A stretch of 35,289 nt of DNA from Clostridia bacterium (GCA_017533425.1 JAFXIE010000037.1:1-35289), one strand, 5' to 3'; shown: positions 6,255 through 14,871, counted from the stretch's first letter. Program-made: numbers and translations. The notes: generated by a model from the sequence alone, not told the origin.

Positions 6255-7166
6255 TTATTTGCCTCCGAGGGTGAATTTCGCCGACTGGATGGCGGAATTG
6301 AGCTCCCGTCCGGCGGGATCGGTGGGGGGATTCCCGGTCATGGCGCGGGTGATGCCGAGAAAAACATCCGATTCCATGCCCTCGATGGTGACGGTGCTTC
6401 CCTCCACGGTGACGATGGCGTGCAGCGGCTCGTTATAGATAATCGTGTAGCCGAGCAGGCGCATCTGCCGGTGCATTTTTTCCGGATAGAGGCGGTGGGG
6501 AGTGTTCAGCCAGTCGTAGGCGGCGGAATTGACATCAAAATAGCAGATGCCGTCCAGAATGCGGATGTAATCGGAATGGTAGTGGCCGTTGATGCACATG
6601 AGAACCTTGCCGGGGCATTTTTCGTTTGCCTCCCGGAGGATGCGCTGCACTTCCTCTCGGTCGGCGGCGCCGTCAGGCCGCTCAAAGCTCTGGTGAGAGA
6701 TGAGAATGCAGCTGCCGGGGGCAGAATCAATGGTTTCCCGAAGCCAGGCGATCTGCTCGGGATTCATGCGGTCGGTGTCATCGGCCTTCTGGTTGTTCTT
6801 CAGGTTGTAATGGATGTACTGCCCGTTTTCGCGGATATAGTTTGGGTTGAGTACGATCATGCGGTAGCCCTTGCAGTCGAAGTAATAATAGTCATTCTCC
6901 AGACCGTAGGCCTCCATCATTTCCGCATAGGTGGATACATCTGCATCGTGGTTTCCGATGCAGTGGTAGGAGGGAATATGGAAGTTGTTATACGCCTCCA
7001 CGATCTCGGGGAAGCGGGCCGGGCCGTGGCAGAAGTCGCCGGCGTGGATGATAAAATCGCAGCCCTCGGCCTCTGCATGGGCCTGCAGTGCTTCAAGATC
7101 GGGCTTTGAGCAGCCGAGAAAGACCTCGGGATAGTAATGAAAATCGGCAAACAGTAAGAATTTCAT
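6255..7166 (-). CDS. Calcineurin-like metallophosphoesterase (copy 1)
   Basis: 303 aa. A binuclear-metal phosphoesterase: FADFHYYP (D8, H10), HAGDF (D43), GNHDAD (71-76), LISHQSFE and INGHYHSDYIR give the five blocks of the fold in order. No signal peptide, so cytoplasmic. It is a clear paralogue of the gene directly upstream, with the same opening (MKFLLFADFH), shared internal phrases (AEAEGCDF, NNFHIPSYH, ANEKCPGKV) and the same length, so the pair arose by tandem duplication. GAGGTG lies 8 bases from the ATG. The gene is sandwiched in an apparent operon between its duplicate and an MBL hydrolase. Likely substrates are small phosphodiesters or sugar phosphates, but this cannot be decided from sequence. 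Confidence 0.88.
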   Translation of the reverse strand: MKFLLFADFHYYPEVFLGCSKPDLEALQAHAEAEGCDFIIHAGDFCHGPARFPEIVEAYNNFHIPSYHCIGNHDADVSTYAEMMEAYGLENDYYYFDCKGYRMIVLNPNYIRENGQYIHYNLKNNQKADDTDRMNPEQIAWLRETIDSAPGSCILISHQSFERPDGAADREEVQRILREANEKCPGKVLMCINGHYHSDYIRILDGICYFDVNSAAYDWLNTPHRLYPEKMHRQMRLLGYTIIYNEPLHAIVTVEGSTVTIEGMESDVFLGITRAMTGNPPTDPAGRELNSAIQSAKFTLGGK

Positions 7167-7180
7167 GGGGTTACACCTCG

Positions 7181-8089
7181 CTATAAAAGCTCAATATGGG
7201 CAGACTGGCAGGTGGCGTCGATCTTTCGTCCGCAGCCGTCGTAGGGCTCGTTTCCGGTATCTTTTGCGGTAAGCCCCATATAGGTCTTCGATTTTGTGCC
7301 TTCGATGGTGATGCTGCCGCCCTCCACCGTGACGATGGCATAGAGGGGATCTGTGTAGGCAAGGGTCTGGTTGACGCCGCGCTTTTGCGCCGCAAGCTCC
7401 GGGGGATAGCATTCGTGGGGCTTGCGCAGATAGTGGTAGCAGGTGGAATTCATATCGAAGTAGCAGATGTTATCGAGAATGCGGATGTAATCGGTGTGGT
7501 GATGACCGTTGATGCAGAGAATGACCTTGCCGGGGCATTTTTCATTTGCCTTCCGCAGGATCTCCTGCACGGCGGCGCGGTTTTTGACGCCGTTTGCCCG
7601 CTCAAAGCTTGCGTGGCTGATGAGAATGCAGCGTCCCGGCGCCTCGTCAATGGTCTTTGCAAGCCAGGCAAGCTGCTCCGGCGGCATCCATTCCCGCTCG
7701 GCGGCATGGGCAAAATAATTCTTCATCTCGTAGTGAACAAAGCTCTCGCCGTCGCGGTAGTAGTTTGTGTCGCAGATGATGATGCGATAGTCCCGGCAGT
7801 CAAAATAGGAATGTCCCGCCGGCATATTGTAGAGGGCAAGGGTTTCGGAAAGGGGGGTGCGGTCGGTATCGTGGTTTCCGAGAATGTGGTAGGAGGGAAT
7901 GTGGAAATTGTTATATTCCGCTACGATTTCGGGAAATTCCGAGGGGACGTGGGTGAAGTCGCCGGCATGGATCAAAAAATCACAGCCTTCGGCCTCGGCG
8001 CGCTGCTGCATCTCGTGCAGATGCTCCCGGGTTCCGCAGATAAAAACATGGGGATAGTGATGAAAATCGGCAAACAGCAGGAATTTCAT
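7181..8089 (-). CDS. Calcineurin-like metallophosphoesterase (copy 2)
   Basis: 302 aa. Second member of the tandem pair. Metal-binding blocks: FADFHHYP (D8, H10), HAGDF (D43), GNHDTD (71-76), LISHASFE and INGHHHTDYIR. All ligands appear intact, so both copies are probably active. It differs from copy 1 mainly in the helical insert after GNHD and in the C-terminal third, which is where divergence in substrate would be expected. GGGAG lies 9 bases before the ATG. The SGNH esterase ends 14 bases upstream and copy 1 begins 14 bases downstream, so they are likely co-transcribed. Confidence 0.88.
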   Translation of the reverse strand: MKFLLFADFHHYPHVFICGTREHLHEMQQRAEAEGCDFLIHAGDFTHVPSEFPEIVAEYNNFHIPSYHILGNHDTDRTPLSETLALYNMPAGHSYFDCRDYRIIICDTNYYRDGESFVHYEMKNYFAHAAEREWMPPEQLAWLAKTIDEAPGRCILISHASFERANGVKNRAAVQEILRKANEKCPGKVILCINGHHHTDYIRILDNICYFDMNSTCYHYLRKPHECYPPELAAQKRGVNQTLAYTDPLYAIVTVEGGSITIEGTKSKTYMGLTAKDTGNEPYDGCGRKIDATCQSAHIELL

Positions 8090-10602: not shown

Positions 10603-11523
10603 TTACCTCGATTCTTTGGTAGGATCAAATATTGCTTTTTCCATCAGAAAATACCGGTTCTCGTACATGTCCGCCTCGCATACCGTGGAAAAGCCTGCCT
10701 TTCGGTAGGCCTTGCAGGCGGGAATGTTTTTGCAGGCAACGGAGAGATGAATGGCCGCAATGCCCCGGCTTTTGAGGATCTCCTCAATGTGCGCCACCAT
10801 GGTCAGCGAAAGCCCTTGCCCCCGGTGGGCGGGATCCACGGCAACCCGGGCGATCTCCGCGGCTTCCCGGTGGGTCCATACGGCGCGGTCGTCCATTTCG
10901 TTTTCGGGCACGATGGATATTGCCCCGACAATGCCGCAGCCGGATTCCAGCACAAAGAGATTCCCGCTCTGCACATCCCTGCGGATCTCATCCATGCCGG
11001 GATAATATGCATTCCATACGCAGAAGGGCTCGCCTTTTACGCGCGTATAGAGGGAAAGCACCGCCTCCGCATCCGCCGGCGTTGCCGCCCGGAAGGTGGG
11101 GGATAAATCCTTTCGGACAAAATATGCAACCGTCTCATCTGTGTTTTGTTTCGGTCGGCAAAGTTCAATACCAACAACTTCGTATTTATTCTGTTCTTCA
11201 ACAGAATAATACTGTTCCATATCGGCAGGGGTCGCTTTATCGACATTTTCGGTAGTATAACCACACTTTAACAAAGGTAAAGATTTATACAAGTCATTGA
11301 AAGTATTAAACCTATGCAATTTAGTAACTGTGGTATTAAGTGTTTCGCCGGTTGTATTATCGGTGAAAACAATCTTGTCACCAACTTTTACTTTCTGACG
11401 CTTTTCATCATACAGACGAAGTTCAATGGTTTTCTCTCCACTCTTTATCATTTCAAAAGGTGTAGAATTTAACTTCATTTTGTGCACATCGATTTTCCGA
11501 CTTAACAATGCAACCGCCTCCAC
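10603..11523 (-). CDS. Chimeric protein: ASCH domain fused to GNAT acetyltransferase
   Basis: 306 aa in one open frame. Residues about 16-122 are an ASCH domain (MKLNSTPFEMIKSGEKT, ELRLYDEKR, VGDKIVF), a PUA-like fold linked to RNA or nucleotide binding and usually a free-standing small protein. Residues about 144-300 are a GNAT N-acetyltransferase (TPADAEAV, then VAVDPAHRGQGLS for acetyl-CoA binding, and ACKAYRKAGF). Base composition changes sharply at about 11,100: the ASCH half is AT-rich and the GNAT half is G+C-rich like the chromosome. The first residues (EAVALLSRKID) look like the tail of an RlmD-type methyltransferase. The start is uncertain: GTG at 11523 behind AAAGGG, or ATG at 11478. 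The GNAT stop overlaps the ribosome binding site of the next gene. A true fusion or an accident of insertion are both possible. Confidence 0.8.
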   Translation of the reverse strand: MEAVALLSRKIDVHKMKLNSTPFEMIKSGEKTIELRLYDEKRQKVKVGDKIVFTDNTTGETLNTTVTKLHRFNTFNDLYKSLPLLKCGYTTENVDKATPADMEQYYSVEEQNKYEVVGIELCRPKQNTDETVAYFVRKDLSPTFRAATPADAEAVLSLYTRVKGEPFCVWNAYYPGMDEIRRDVQSGNLFVLESGCGIVGAISIVPENEMDDRAVWTHREAAEIARVAVDPAHRGQGLSLTMVAHIEEILKSRGIAAIHLSVACKNIPACKAYRKAGFSTVCEADMYENRYFLMEKAIFDPTKESR

Positions 11524-11553
11524 AGTTGTCCCTTTAGGTAGGGAGTCTACCGA
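11497..11553 (-). pseudogene. Remnant of an RlmD/RumA-type methyltransferase 3' end
   Basis: In frame with the ASCH-GNAT gene and running into it from upstream, the minus strand reads SVDSLPKGTTVEAVALLSR. This resembles the terminal motif of TrmA/RlmD methyltransferases (VDLFP-x-T-x-HVE-x-VVLLSR), with the catalytic His of HVE replaced by Thr. It lies in the same orientation as the intact rlmD end (GTDHIESIVLLSR), about 1.25 kb away, and shares the bases TTAAGT-n-GG. Such 3' ends are known integration targets of Gram-positive ICEs. Confidence 0.45.
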
Positions 11554-11609
11554 GGAAATTTGACAAATTGAATTTAGCTACTCAAATCATATCGCGTTTG
11601 TGTGAGCTT

Positions 11610-12644
11610 TTAATCAGTACTCATGTATGCCGCAAAATCAATCTCCTTCGTCTGTAGTTTCTCTGTTCTATCTAAGCAGTCTTGAATGGCATTTTCATCA
11701 GTTCCTGCCTTTTTGAGTGTTTGTGTCTCCGTATACCAAAGAGGCTTAAGACAACGATACAACAAGGGTGCGGCCTGTTTCTCCAAATCCGAGAAACAAT
11801 ACACCCGGCTAACATTTTTTAATGTTTTAAGCAAATATTCTTCGTTGTACTGCCAGTGGATTTCCCGGAATAAATAGTTCAAAAATACATCTCGTCCACA
11901 CAGATTGAAATCAAGAACACCGACAAACTCACCATTATCATCCAATAAAAGATTTGTGGAATTTAAATCAGCTTGAAACACAGAGGTTGGCAATTTGCAA
12001 TAAATCTGCTCTAACGCATTACGATTGCTCATCCATCTCTGCCAGATTCTCTGTATCTGCGTCTGAAATTTTTCGGGTAGGTTGTCTGCATATTTCTTCC
12101 ATTCCAATGCATTTTCCAAAACTTCATCTGTTTCATCGCTTGCACAGAATGTTTCAAAAAGACAGTACGCTGATGGGTAATTACAAAAATCAAACTGTTT
12201 AGCTGCTACCTTTGCTGTCATTATCAAGGCTGCATCCATCCAGCTGGTGTCCAATGGTATTCTTTTTTTAGAATCTCCTCCGAGTCGTTCCTCGACAGCG
12301 GTATATTTACAAAACTCTTCCGTATAGACCACACAGTCATGCCCTTTATATGTAATCCTCGGAAAATTTCCCTGTTTCGAAGAAAGAATCACAGGACAAT
12401 AATATCCTAATTTCTGATACTCGTTCGCACAGCGCTGCCATATCTTAATTTTCTCAGGAAATGTAAAATCATTATCCGAAAGCTTTATAACATACTTCTC
12501 TCCCAAACTCCATTCTGCAATAACAACTTCTCTGAAATCTGCATCGCCACGACTTGTGTTTATAATTTCATACTGATATGGCAATTCATCAAAAAACAGC
12601 TGAAATATACTGATTAGTTCTTTGTTTACTAAATCTATGTTCAT
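11610..12644 (-). CDS. APH-like phosphotransferase (aminoglycoside phosphotransferase/choline kinase fold)
   Basis: 344 aa. A kinase of the APH fold, which phosphorylates small molecules such as aminoglycosides, homoserine or choline. The N-lobe has GEKYVIKLSDND with the ATP lysine (about K54). The catalytic loop reads VFQADLNSTNLLLD: D226 and N231 match the Brenner motif HxDxxxxN but the His is Gln (Q224). The following DFN (245-247) carries the metal-binding Asp. The protein is AT-rich in codon use, unlike its neighbours, and lies wholly in the AT-rich island, so it was probably acquired. GAGG lies 8 bases before the ATG, and it follows rlmD by 32 bases on the same strand. The substrate is unknown and resistance should not be assumed. 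Confidence 0.8.
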   Translation of the reverse strand: MNIDLVNKELISIFQLFFDELPYQYEIINTSRGDADFREVVIAEWSLGEKYVIKLSDNDFTFPEKIKIWQRCANEYQKLGYYCPVILSSKQGNFPRITYKGHDCVVYTEEFCKYTAVEERLGGDSKKRIPLDTSWMDAALIMTAKVAAKQFDFCNYPSAYCLFETFCASDETDEVLENALEWKKYADNLPEKFQTQIQRIWQRWMSNRNALEQIYCKLPTSVFQADLNSTNLLLDDNGEFVGVLDFNLCGRDVFLNYLFREIHWQYNEEYLLKTLKNVSRVYCFSDLEKQAAPLLYRCLKPLWYTETQTLKKAGTDENAIQDCLDRTEKLQTKEIDFAAYMSTD

Positions 12645-12676
12645 TAATAGCGCCTCATCAAGTTTAAGCTTATTTG

Positions 12677-14044
12677 TCAGTTTGTTCTCATATGTAAATC
12701 CTTCGTATTAACGGATATACGGACATAATCGTCGGCCTTTTCCCTACTTAAAAGAACAATAGATTCAATATGATCCGTGCCGGGAAAGAGATCGGCTACG
12801 GCGTATTTCTGCGGGGTATAGGCTGCGGAAAGGCGGGCGATATCCCGGGCGAGGGTGGCGGGATCGCAGGAAATGTAGACAAGGTGGGGCGGTGCCATTT
12901 CGCAGAGCAGGCGGCACAGCTCCTCGGACAGACCCTTGCGGGGCGGATCGAGGATGACAAGCTCCGGTCTCTCTCCGCGTGCCGCGAGCTTTTCGGCGGC
13001 GGCAAAGGCATCCGCGGCGATGAATTCCGCGTCTCTGCCCAAATCAGCGGCAATTTTCTTTGCGCAGTCCACGGCATCGGGAACGATCTCCACGCCGATG
13101 AGGCGGGTTTCCGGCGGGGTGGTGCAGAGACCGATGCTGCCGATGCCGCAGTAGAGATCCAGCACCGAGGCAGGGGCGGCCTCGCGGATGTATTCCGCCG
13201 CCTTGGTATAAAGCCTTTCAGCCATCAGGGTGTTGACCTGAAAAAAGGCAGCCGGGGCAATGGAAAACGCAATATCCATCAGCCGTTCGCGAATATTGGC
13301 GCTGCCGTAGAGCACCCCGGGGCATCTTCCAATGCCGACACCGCCCTTCAGCGGCGCGGGACAGCGCACAATGCCGGTGATTTCCGGACAGGCAGACAAA
13401 AGGGCGTCGATCAAAGCCTCTTTTTCCGGCACTGGGGTATCGGAAAGAATGGCAAGCAGCAGCTCACCATATCGGAGAGAGCGGCGGATGAGCAGTCCAT
13501 AGGGGGAAAAACGGGTGGTGCGGCAGTGGGCGGCGATCAATTCAACGGCGCGGTCGGTTTCTTCGGGGGAGAGCAGGGCGCGGCAGCAGCCGGGCACGGG
13601 GGTGTGGCTGCCGGCCTCGCAGAAGCCGAAGCTGCCTGATGCCGGATCAAAGCGCAGCAGTGCCTTGTTGCGGTAGCCATCCCGCGATGGGGCGGGGAGG
13701 ATATCCTCGGGGTCTGCATTCCAGCCGCCGATGCGGGAGAGGCAGCTGCGCACATGCTCCGCCTTGGCGGAAAGCTCCTCCCGGTAGGTCATATGCCGGG
13801 CGGGACAGCCGCCGCAGCTATCGGAGAGGGGGCAATCGGAGGCGATGCGCTCCGGCGAGGGGCGTAAAAGCGCAACCATATGGCCAAAAGCAGCGCGGCG
13901 GGTCACACGGTCGATCTCGCAGAGGCAAAGATCGCCGCGCACCGCGCCGCGTATAAATACAACAACACCATCGGCATGGGCGACGCCGTCGCCCGTGCCG
14001 GTGGTGGATTCAATATTCAGCTGTCGTCTCTCGCCGAGCTCCAT
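12677..14044 (-). CDS. rlmD: 23S rRNA (uracil-5-)-methyltransferase, RlmD/RumA (TrmA) family
   Basis: 455 aa. It methylates C5 of a uridine in 23S rRNA using SAM. The 4Fe-4S cluster cysteines are C71, C77, C80 and C153, the same C-x5-C-x2-C plus distal Cys spacing as E. coli RumA. SAM binding is at VLDLYCGIGSIG (294-305), LDPPRKG is at 365-371, and the catalytic nucleophile C393 is in YISCDPATLARD. The base E426 is in the final HIE motif. The start at 14044 follows the DUF3298 gene by 5 bases. The last ~30 codons, from about HIESIVLL onward, are AT-rich and unlike the rest of the gene, which marks this 3' end as an insertion junction. Clostridia often carry several family members, so the exact target uridine (U1939 or U747) is uncertain. 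Confidence 0.92.
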   Translation of the reverse strand: MELGERRQLNIESTTGTGDGVAHADGVVVFIRGAVRGDLCLCEIDRVTRRAAFGHMVALLRPSPERIASDCPLSDSCGGCPARHMTYREELSAKAEHVRSCLSRIGGWNADPEDILPAPSRDGYRNKALLRFDPASGSFGFCEAGSHTPVPGCCRALLSPEETDRAVELIAAHCRTTRFSPYGLLIRRSLRYGELLLAILSDTPVPEKEALIDALLSACPEITGIVRCPAPLKGGVGIGRCPGVLYGSANIRERLMDIAFSIAPAAFFQVNTLMAERLYTKAAEYIREAAPASVLDLYCGIGSIGLCTTPPETRLIGVEIVPDAVDCAKKIAADLGRDAEFIAADAFAAAEKLAARGERPELVILDPPRKGLSEELCRLLCEMAPPHLVYISCDPATLARDIARLSAAYTPQKYAVADLFPGTDHIESIVLLSREKADDYVRISVNTKDLHMRTN

Positions 14045-14049
14045 GGGAC

Positions 14050-14871
14050 TTATCCTACCTGTGTACCTTCCAGGATATCCGCCAGGGCGGAATAGGGGAT
14101 GGAAAATGTAATTACACCGGCGGTGTAGGGGGCAATTTCGTAGGGCTGATAGATGAGATACAGGGTCTCGTCGCCAAGATACCATTTATCCGCAAAGGTG
14201 TTTGCGTACAGCGCCTCCGCGTAATTCTCGTAGTATAGAAAATCCAGGGGATCAAAGGTCAGCTTCTCATTGTCGATGATCCGCTTGACCTCGGCGTGCA
14301 GGCGGGGAAGATACACGGTGGAATCGACATCAAAAACATCGTCCAGCGTAAGCTGCTTGCCCGTCTGTGCATCAAAGGAGAGGGCGGTGTTGGTATCGAT
14401 CGCGTGCATGCCGCCGGTAAAAACGGTGGACTGGACGAGATAGGAAACGCTCTTCTCGCAGGCGTGGGCCAGCAGGATATCCTGCGTCTCATAATAGGCC
14501 GCGAGGGAGGCGTCCGCCGCATGGTCGGCAATGGCCTCGTTGCCGCGCAGGTTTGCCAGGTTGCGCAGGTTTTGTGCATAGGTGGAGATGGCAATGTTGA
14601 TGTTTGCGCGGGAAATCTCCGGCAGGGACGGATCCTGCAGCCGCTCATAGCTGATGGCGGAGGTCATGACCACCTTGCCTGCGCCTGAGCGATATTCCTT
14701 ATAATCCTCCACGCTGGCCGATTCACCGGCGGCGGAGGAGACGGAATCCTGCGCATCCGCGGAGGGGGAGAGGCTGATGGCAATATCACCCCCGGTGTCG
14801 GGGGCTTCGCCGCAGCCGCACAGGCAGGCGGCAAGGGCAAAGGCCAGCAGAAGGGAGAGAAGCTTTTTCAT
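14050..14871 (-). CDS. DUF3298/RsiV-like lipoprotein
   Basis: 273 aa. A lipoprotein signal (MKKLLSLLLAFALAACLCGC, lipid-attached C20) is followed by an acidic Ser/Ala-rich linker (about 25-55) and a folded domain. YLVQSTVFTGGMHA, LSFDAQTGKQLTLDDVF and WYLGDETLYLIYQPYEIAPYTAG are the usual landmarks of the DUF3298 (heparanase/RsiV-like) family, with the DUF4163-type strand region before them. Related domains form the extracellular part of anti-sigma factors such as RsiV, which binds lysozyme, but no sigma factor or transmembrane anti-sigma part is present here. GGAGG lies upstream of the ATG. It sits between the DUF3810 gene (20 bases) and rlmD (5 bases). Surface location is firm. The role is unknown. 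Confidence 0.87.
   Translation of the reverse strand: MKKLLSLLLAFALAACLCGCGEAPDTGGDIAISLSPSADAQDSVSSAAGESASVEDYKEYRSGAGKVVMTSAISYERLQDPSLPEISRANINIAISTYAQNLRNLANLRGNEAIADHAADASLAAYYETQDILLAHACEKSVSYLVQSTVFTGGMHAIDTNTALSFDAQTGKQLTLDDVFDVDSTVYLPRLHAEVKRIIDNEKLTFDPLDFLYYENYAEALYANTFADKWYLGDETLYLIYQPYEIAPYTAGVITFSIPYSALADILEGTQVG

Follow-up and report, generated by a model that had tools for sequence, protein, structure and literature searches.

A probable tandem array of integrase-less gene cassettes forms an AT-rich island at the 3' end of rlmD in a Clostridia genome

The window, the whole stretch of 35,289 nucleotides of a Clostridia bacterium analysed here (GCA_017533425.1 JAFXIE010000037.1:1-35289), harbours an AT-rich island behind rlmD, and both edges of this island lie within open reading frames. 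Its G+C content is 0.375 over positions 11125-12764, compared to a mean of 0.588 (sd 0.018, minimum 0.541) for the other 1640-bp stretches of the window. Measured over 300 bp at a time, G+C falls from ~0.61-0.63 to 0.34-0.41 between ~11100 and ~12750, and a two-change-point likelihood fit placed the edges at 11103 and 12772. Third-position G+C is 0.37 in the gene for an APH-like kinase and 0.45 in ASCH, compared to 0.60-0.73 in the neighbouring genes. The edges fall within the rlmD ORF (12677-14185) and an ASCH-GNAT ORF (10603-11523), and the only frames of the island are APH and ASCH, without an integrase or conjugation gene. These data bear out a preliminary description of this DNA as an AT-rich block with abrupt edges inside two open frames and without integrase, and its suggestion of acquisition by recombination proved right when the sites were compared. 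Its other suggestion, the decayed end of an integrated element, fits less well than two integrase-less cassettes, because matches to the APH cassette's two ends, and to the right-hand end of the ASCH cassette, recur elsewhere. Random composition was ruled out as the cause of the island, because the G+C edges coincide with att-like cores. The island is composed of an APH-like kinase cassette (~1.24 kb) and an ASCH cassette (~0.39 kb) in tandem, with both edges formed by site-specific junctions in a recurring core of the rlmD 3' end. That it represents two mobile gene cassettes without integrase, arrayed in tandem at an rlmD attachment site, is considered likely.

The gene rlmD, coding for 23S rRNA uracil-1939 C5-methyltransferase, has its complete host domain at 12765..14185 on the minus strand (TIGR00479, ORF). 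Its frame extends to 12677 through a cassette-encoded tail and terminates with ..FPGTDHIESIVLLSREKADDYVRISVNTKDLHMRTN and a stop codon. The TIGR00479 rumA profile matched the RlmD of the window with 242.5 bits and reached its last position (432/432) at residue 474. RlmD is therefore complete and its last 28 residues are an added tail, so that the earlier idea of a replaced 3' end of the resident gene was mostly wrong; only the tail has been exchanged, at the attachment site. This site comprises the last rlmD codons, H-V-E-x-V-x-L-L, directly after which RlmD tails diverge family-wide, and the recurring core at the rlmD 3' end reads GARnnnRTNGTT (codons E-x-V/I-V). Alignment of nine junctions showed host-specific sequence upstream of the core and cassette-conserved sequence downstream of it. 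Core 1 of the window, the attL-like junction of rlmD and the APH cassette (GAATCTATTGTT, codons E-S-I-V; 12755..12766, minus strand), was located with these nine junctions. It falls in the codons H-I-E-S-I-V with a new tail beyond, as in a 3'-end insertion with exchange of the C-terminal tail. Cassette insertions explain the variable C-terminal tails of RlmD in these bacteria. A second kind of RlmD tail, SKLNAKQHIEINLDMDELDL..KATYQEIKDYVLEHSGLKVSSLYIAQVKQKCGI.., was observed in L013 (G002:C117, 5379-7113) and in L047 (G004). In L013 it is followed by another APH-like gene and by a second rlmD 3' fragment ending in HVEAVCLLSRKDK and a stop codon. This second tail kind belongs to a different element family using the same rlmD site.

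The APH cassette starts, in the direction of rlmD transcription, with a left end of ~95 bp (12659..12757, minus strand) that encodes the RlmD tail SREKADDYVRISVNTKDLHMRTN up to its stop codon; the new tail begins with SREKADDYVRISV.., and over 94 bp this end agrees with the consensus at 82% identity. The cargo gene (11610..12644, minus strand and thus the rlmD strand) has its own start codon and encodes an APH-like phosphotransferase of 344 aa, matching Pfam APH with 30.9 bits (cut-off 23.2). Relatives of this protein at 35-37% identity were found within the order, and a sequence search for a solved structural relative returned none. The cassette closes with a right end of ~58 bp, GGTAGACTCCCTACCTAAAGGGACAAC, of type 1 (..GGTAGACTCCCTACCTAAAGGGACAACTGTGGAG; 11518..11575, minus strand, by consensus match), which is 88% identical to the consensus; the right end of G001, a genome of the same genus, is 98% identical. 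Core 2, the junction of the APH and ASCH cassettes (GAGGCGGTT, codons E-A-V), lies at 11512..11520 on the minus strand, as indicated by core comparison and by a DNA match to locus L059 that ends at 11524.

The ASCH cassette (~0.39 kb; 11128..11514, minus strand; Pfam ASCH 36 bits) carries an ASCH domain that is in frame through core 2 and is preceded by ..VDSLPKGTTVEAVALLSRKIDVHK, which again reads V-E-x-V-x-L-L-S-R. Its right end is of type 2 (CCGACCGAAACAAAACACAGATGAG, RPKQNTDE; 11136..11159, minus strand). A similar motif of this second type, CC.ACCTAAAC.AAT.AC.GACGA, was also seen at insert ends in L090, L130, L133 and L059. Core 3, the junction of the ASCH cassette with GNAT (GAGACGGTT, codons E-T-V; 11128..11136, minus strand), is a direct repeat of core 2, with which it has GAGRCGGTTGCAT in common. 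It lies near the position where the L059 match stops (11125) and near the change point in G+C (11103), and the border reads ..RPKQNTDETVAYFVRKD. L059 (SVQA01000003.1, an Oscillospiraceae MAG) harbours an in-frame rlmD-ASCH fusion of 581 aa followed by a GNAT gene. Its ASCH DNA is 84% identical to that of the window over 11125-11524, a match that stops at both cores, and the RlmD and GNAT proteins of the two loci share 36% and 29% identity, respectively. L059 is the sole clear support for the left border of the ASCH cassette. L062 also has an rlmD-ASCH fusion, and ASCH adjoins rlmD in L014 and L060. As the fusion in L059 represents the state expected before entry of the APH cassette, the ASCH cassette was probably fused to rlmD first, with the APH cassette inserted later at the same core. 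A PD-(D/E)XK gene was seen between rlmD and ASCH in L060 (JAFSIW010000055.1, 6751-9530), where a second rlmD-like gene follows ASCH.

No separate start codon is present for the GNAT acetyltransferase part (10603..11127, minus strand; Acetyltransf_1, 59.9 bits with Pfam), which may be resident or may stem from an older insertion. A free-standing GNAT homologue, 42% identical, is present in G009. In 394 genomes of the order, ASCH and GNAT homologues are always apart and no other match spanning both domains was found. A natural ASCH-GNAT protein family was rejected, there being no second such fusion in these 394 genomes; the predicted ASCH-GNAT protein is a chimera. Cassettes explain both the RlmD-ASCH and the ASCH-GNAT fusions, which annotation would take for real domain architectures. 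The last GNAT codons, FDPTKESR-stop (window 10603-10660), resemble FHPTHHESR-stop after the right end in G001 (L011, 1-130), and the sequence before the next gene is also alike in these two stretches. The GNAT end at 10603-10660 is possibly a fourth junction.

Comparison with other genomes revealed the same ends around other cargo. An earlier order-wide pattern for the right end was too strict, matching G000 and G001 alone, and a junction query of 165 bases, consisting of the right end joined to the left end, was used instead. Strong matches to this query at rlmD, as well as recurrence of the left end at rlmD, were found in G001, G139, G199, G262, G276, G289, G337 and G355, with query matches in families f1, f10, f16 and f19; most of the compared genomes are MAGs, and frequencies are drawn from samples of the order. 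Left ends are 82-96% and right ends 76-98% identical to the consensus around unrelated cargo. The median pairwise identity is 0.79 for left ends and 0.74 for right ends, compared to 0.44 for the interiors, which equals the alignment background; a mutual blastn match between interiors was obtained for G262 and G337 alone, which share a gene. The ends enclose 1235 bp in the window, 515 bp in G276, 568 bp in G262, 572 bp in both G337 and G139, 605 bp in G355, and 588 and 524 bp in the two cassettes of G289, with a cassette G+C content of 0.36-0.40 in all hosts. Outside the genus, host RlmD proteins share ~30-37% identity with that of the window (G139, G199, G262, G276, G289, G355 and most of G337), and therefore common host sequence does not by itself account for the shared ends. 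Cassettes sit at long as well as short RlmD paralogues, and in the 12 genomes tested strong left-end matches occurred at rlmD exclusively. Among the cargo are a cytidine deaminase, DUF4279 and SF0329, along with several proteins that belong to no Pfam family. Screening of cargo with PADLOC gave no defence match except the PD-(D/E)XK gene at rlmD in L060 (candidate PDC-S26). The additional matches from a class-wide search with a 39-residue junction peptide were all weak. In L090 (G355:C6, 8841-10622) a frame of 593 aa runs from RlmD through an entire SF0329-like cassette and on into the following left end; automatic annotation would call this fusion one protein.

Cargo turnover was observed within genera g1, g29 and g137. 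Neither of the same-genus genomes G001 and G002 showed the gene order of the window with uniform composition. G001 has the same rlmD tail (match from 12673), with other cargo behind it until the contig breaks off. Another G001 contig opens with the same right end, after which come a short tail and the next resident gene, without ASCH or GNAT in between. G002 has a different rlmD tail and a different APH-like gene. Elsewhere in the window (6265-8089) two tandem paralogous metallophosphoesterase-like genes are found, which are in tandem in G001 as well (L011, 2634-4475). Tandem growth and an empty site were found within one genus. Behind an rlmD paralogue, G289 carries two tandem cassettes that meet in a natural right-end/left-end junction, and in G301 the same rlmD runs directly into the same downstream gene. 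The two outer borders of the G289 array each contain a 37-bp stretch that is found at this empty site. As judged from these DNA comparisons, the cassettes are shown to have variable cargo between a left and a right end that are both conserved, with a fixed site, in-frame joining, tandem growth and no integrase.

The left end is almost invariant beside the core; farther out the variable columns number 7, 3 and 14 at the three codon positions. Since this variation is mostly at third positions, part of the conservation may be coding constraint. The pattern fits selection acting on the RlmD tail, or descent from a coding end, for example the C-terminus of an integrase. In G331:C10, G013:C194 and G373:C58 conservation of the left end is limited to its initial 20-35 bases, which suggests a minimal left site of ~30 bp.

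In the mechanism proposed here, insertion fuses rlmD in frame to the left end of the cassette, and the right end rejoins the downstream sequence. RlmD thereby retains its whole catalytic domain and gains a short tail. The cassettes may move as circles via site-specific recombination, carried out by a putative trans-acting large serine integrase that targets rumA/rlmD and would reside on an ICE or other element outside this assembly. The cargo may be expressed from the rlmD transcript, because every cargo gene identified has the same orientation as rlmD, with in-frame read-through in some cases. The mode of action of the cassettes most likely resembles that of CIMEs or of integron-style cassettes, with mobilisation in trans, because the 3' end of rlmD/rumA is a known attB of serine-integrase ICEs. 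A large serine recombinase (PF07508) was not found in the assembly of the window, a MAG of 85.8% completeness. Inspection of 23 loci with large serine recombinases, from 12 genomes, revealed neither of the cassette ends and no parent element with them, and a large serine recombinase bearing the ends in the same genomes was rejected as a candidate on that count (0/23). No match to the ends or the cargo was obtained in the searches made of plasmids, phages and viral contigs, which for the ends included IMG/VR. A strong attP palindrome was likewise rejected: the symmetry is weak, with 14 of 22 arm positions matching, and 46 of 2000 shuffles were equally good.

Other explanations of the island were considered. 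The window makes up one of the 151 contigs of its MAG, and the island might stem from an assembly chimera of the metagenome bin, but the independent genome G001 shares the rlmD left end as well as the right end before the next resident gene, and the arrangement is also found in other families, making a chimera extremely improbable. A stronger rival, though still judged unlikely, holds that the cassettes are immobile CIME remnants of an rlmD-targeting ICE family, formed by internal deletion, and that the array is a graveyard. CIMEs are defined by att sites without integrase, measure 1.2-13 kb and occur in tandem at gene 3' ends (PMC7563491), and the left end reads as a C-terminal protein tail, comparable to the exchange of integrase and rumA C-termini (PMC4701971). 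Independent deletions, however, would rarely leave a single cargo gene flanked each time by these ends of ~95 and ~58 bp in several families, at 0.5-1.2 kb and with cargo that differs from genus to genus, and full and empty sites exist within one genus.

It could also be speculated that the cassettes spread without an integrase, by ordinary homologous recombination between the conserved ends and rlmD flanks. The shared ends of 58-95 bp could serve as homology arms, and the border repeat of G289/G301 is, with 37 bp, longer than a serine-integrase core. However, flanks in RlmD hosts of 30-37% identity give little homology for first entry and the junctions lie in the same codons every time, so that this route is regarded as distinctly improbable, more so than decay from an ICE. 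If the mobile cassettes preferred here are active, they represent another way, besides integrons, to stack single genes behind a fixed gene. Their ends provide a simple search key for cassette cargo in metagenomes (kinases, deaminases, ASCH, DUF4279, SF0329 and unknown families).

The gene rumA/rlmD is a target of the single serine integrases of Tn1549-/Tn5252-type ICEs, with exchange of rumA and integrase C-termini (PMC4701971). A direct repeat CAGACGCATCACGTGGAG has been reported for the ICE site in rumA/rlmD (PMC13214566), CTn5 moves into rumA (PMC4320837), and rumA/rlmD is a hotspot in Dehalobacter (PMC11578063). The cassettes resemble these ICEs (Tn1549/Tn5252, CTn5) in their target, the 3' part of rumA/rlmD, where the ICE direct repeat reads as the H-V-E codons of the site (PMC13214566), and in the exchange of the C-terminal tail (PMC4701971). 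In contrast to these ICEs, which measure tens of kb and carry integrase and conjugation genes, the cassettes measure 0.4-1.2 kb and carry one cargo gene. The large serine integrase with attR in its 3' end, a trait of the ICEs, is absent from the island, and PF07508 was not found in the 85.8%-complete MAG.

SCC elements at rlmH likewise insert at the 3' end of a gene for a 23S rRNA methyltransferase and form composite tandem insertions, but they are far larger and encode Ccr serine recombinases; apart from the far smaller size of the cassettes, the target gene differs (rlmD versus rlmH). Integron cassettes are single genes in one orientation, in tandem behind one fixed site, with the integrase outside the cassette. 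The rlmD cassettes share the single same-strand genes, tandem order, fixed site and lack of an integrase within the cassette. Unlike integrons, no intI was seen, the ends, read by eye, lack the attC motifs GTTRRRY/RYYYAAC, and the rlmD site lies inside a coding gene, of which the protein tail is exchanged. The closest described kind is the CIME (PMC7563491). The cassettes share with CIMEs att-like ends on both sides with the core at both junctions, enzymatic recombination of these cores being presumed, as well as cargo genes without integrase or conjugation gene, in tandem at a gene 3' end (PMC7563491). No description of single-gene cassettes at rlmD was found in titles and chosen passages of open-licence papers. 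CIMEs as described are decay products of 1.2-13 kb beside a related ICE/IME, from which they derive by deletion and with which they are mobilised once accretion has taken place, whereas the present units are uniform and single-gene across several families; both this uniform format and its occurrence in several families exceed what is described for CIMEs (PMC7563491). It is tentatively proposed, as a possibility held to be somewhat less than even, that these cassettes represent an undescribed Clostridia-like system: standardised, AT-rich, integrase-less single-gene cassettes that would circulate between families and stack behind rlmD, which would provide transcription while each new first cassette rewrites its protein tail, an integron analogue on a serine-recombinase-type site.
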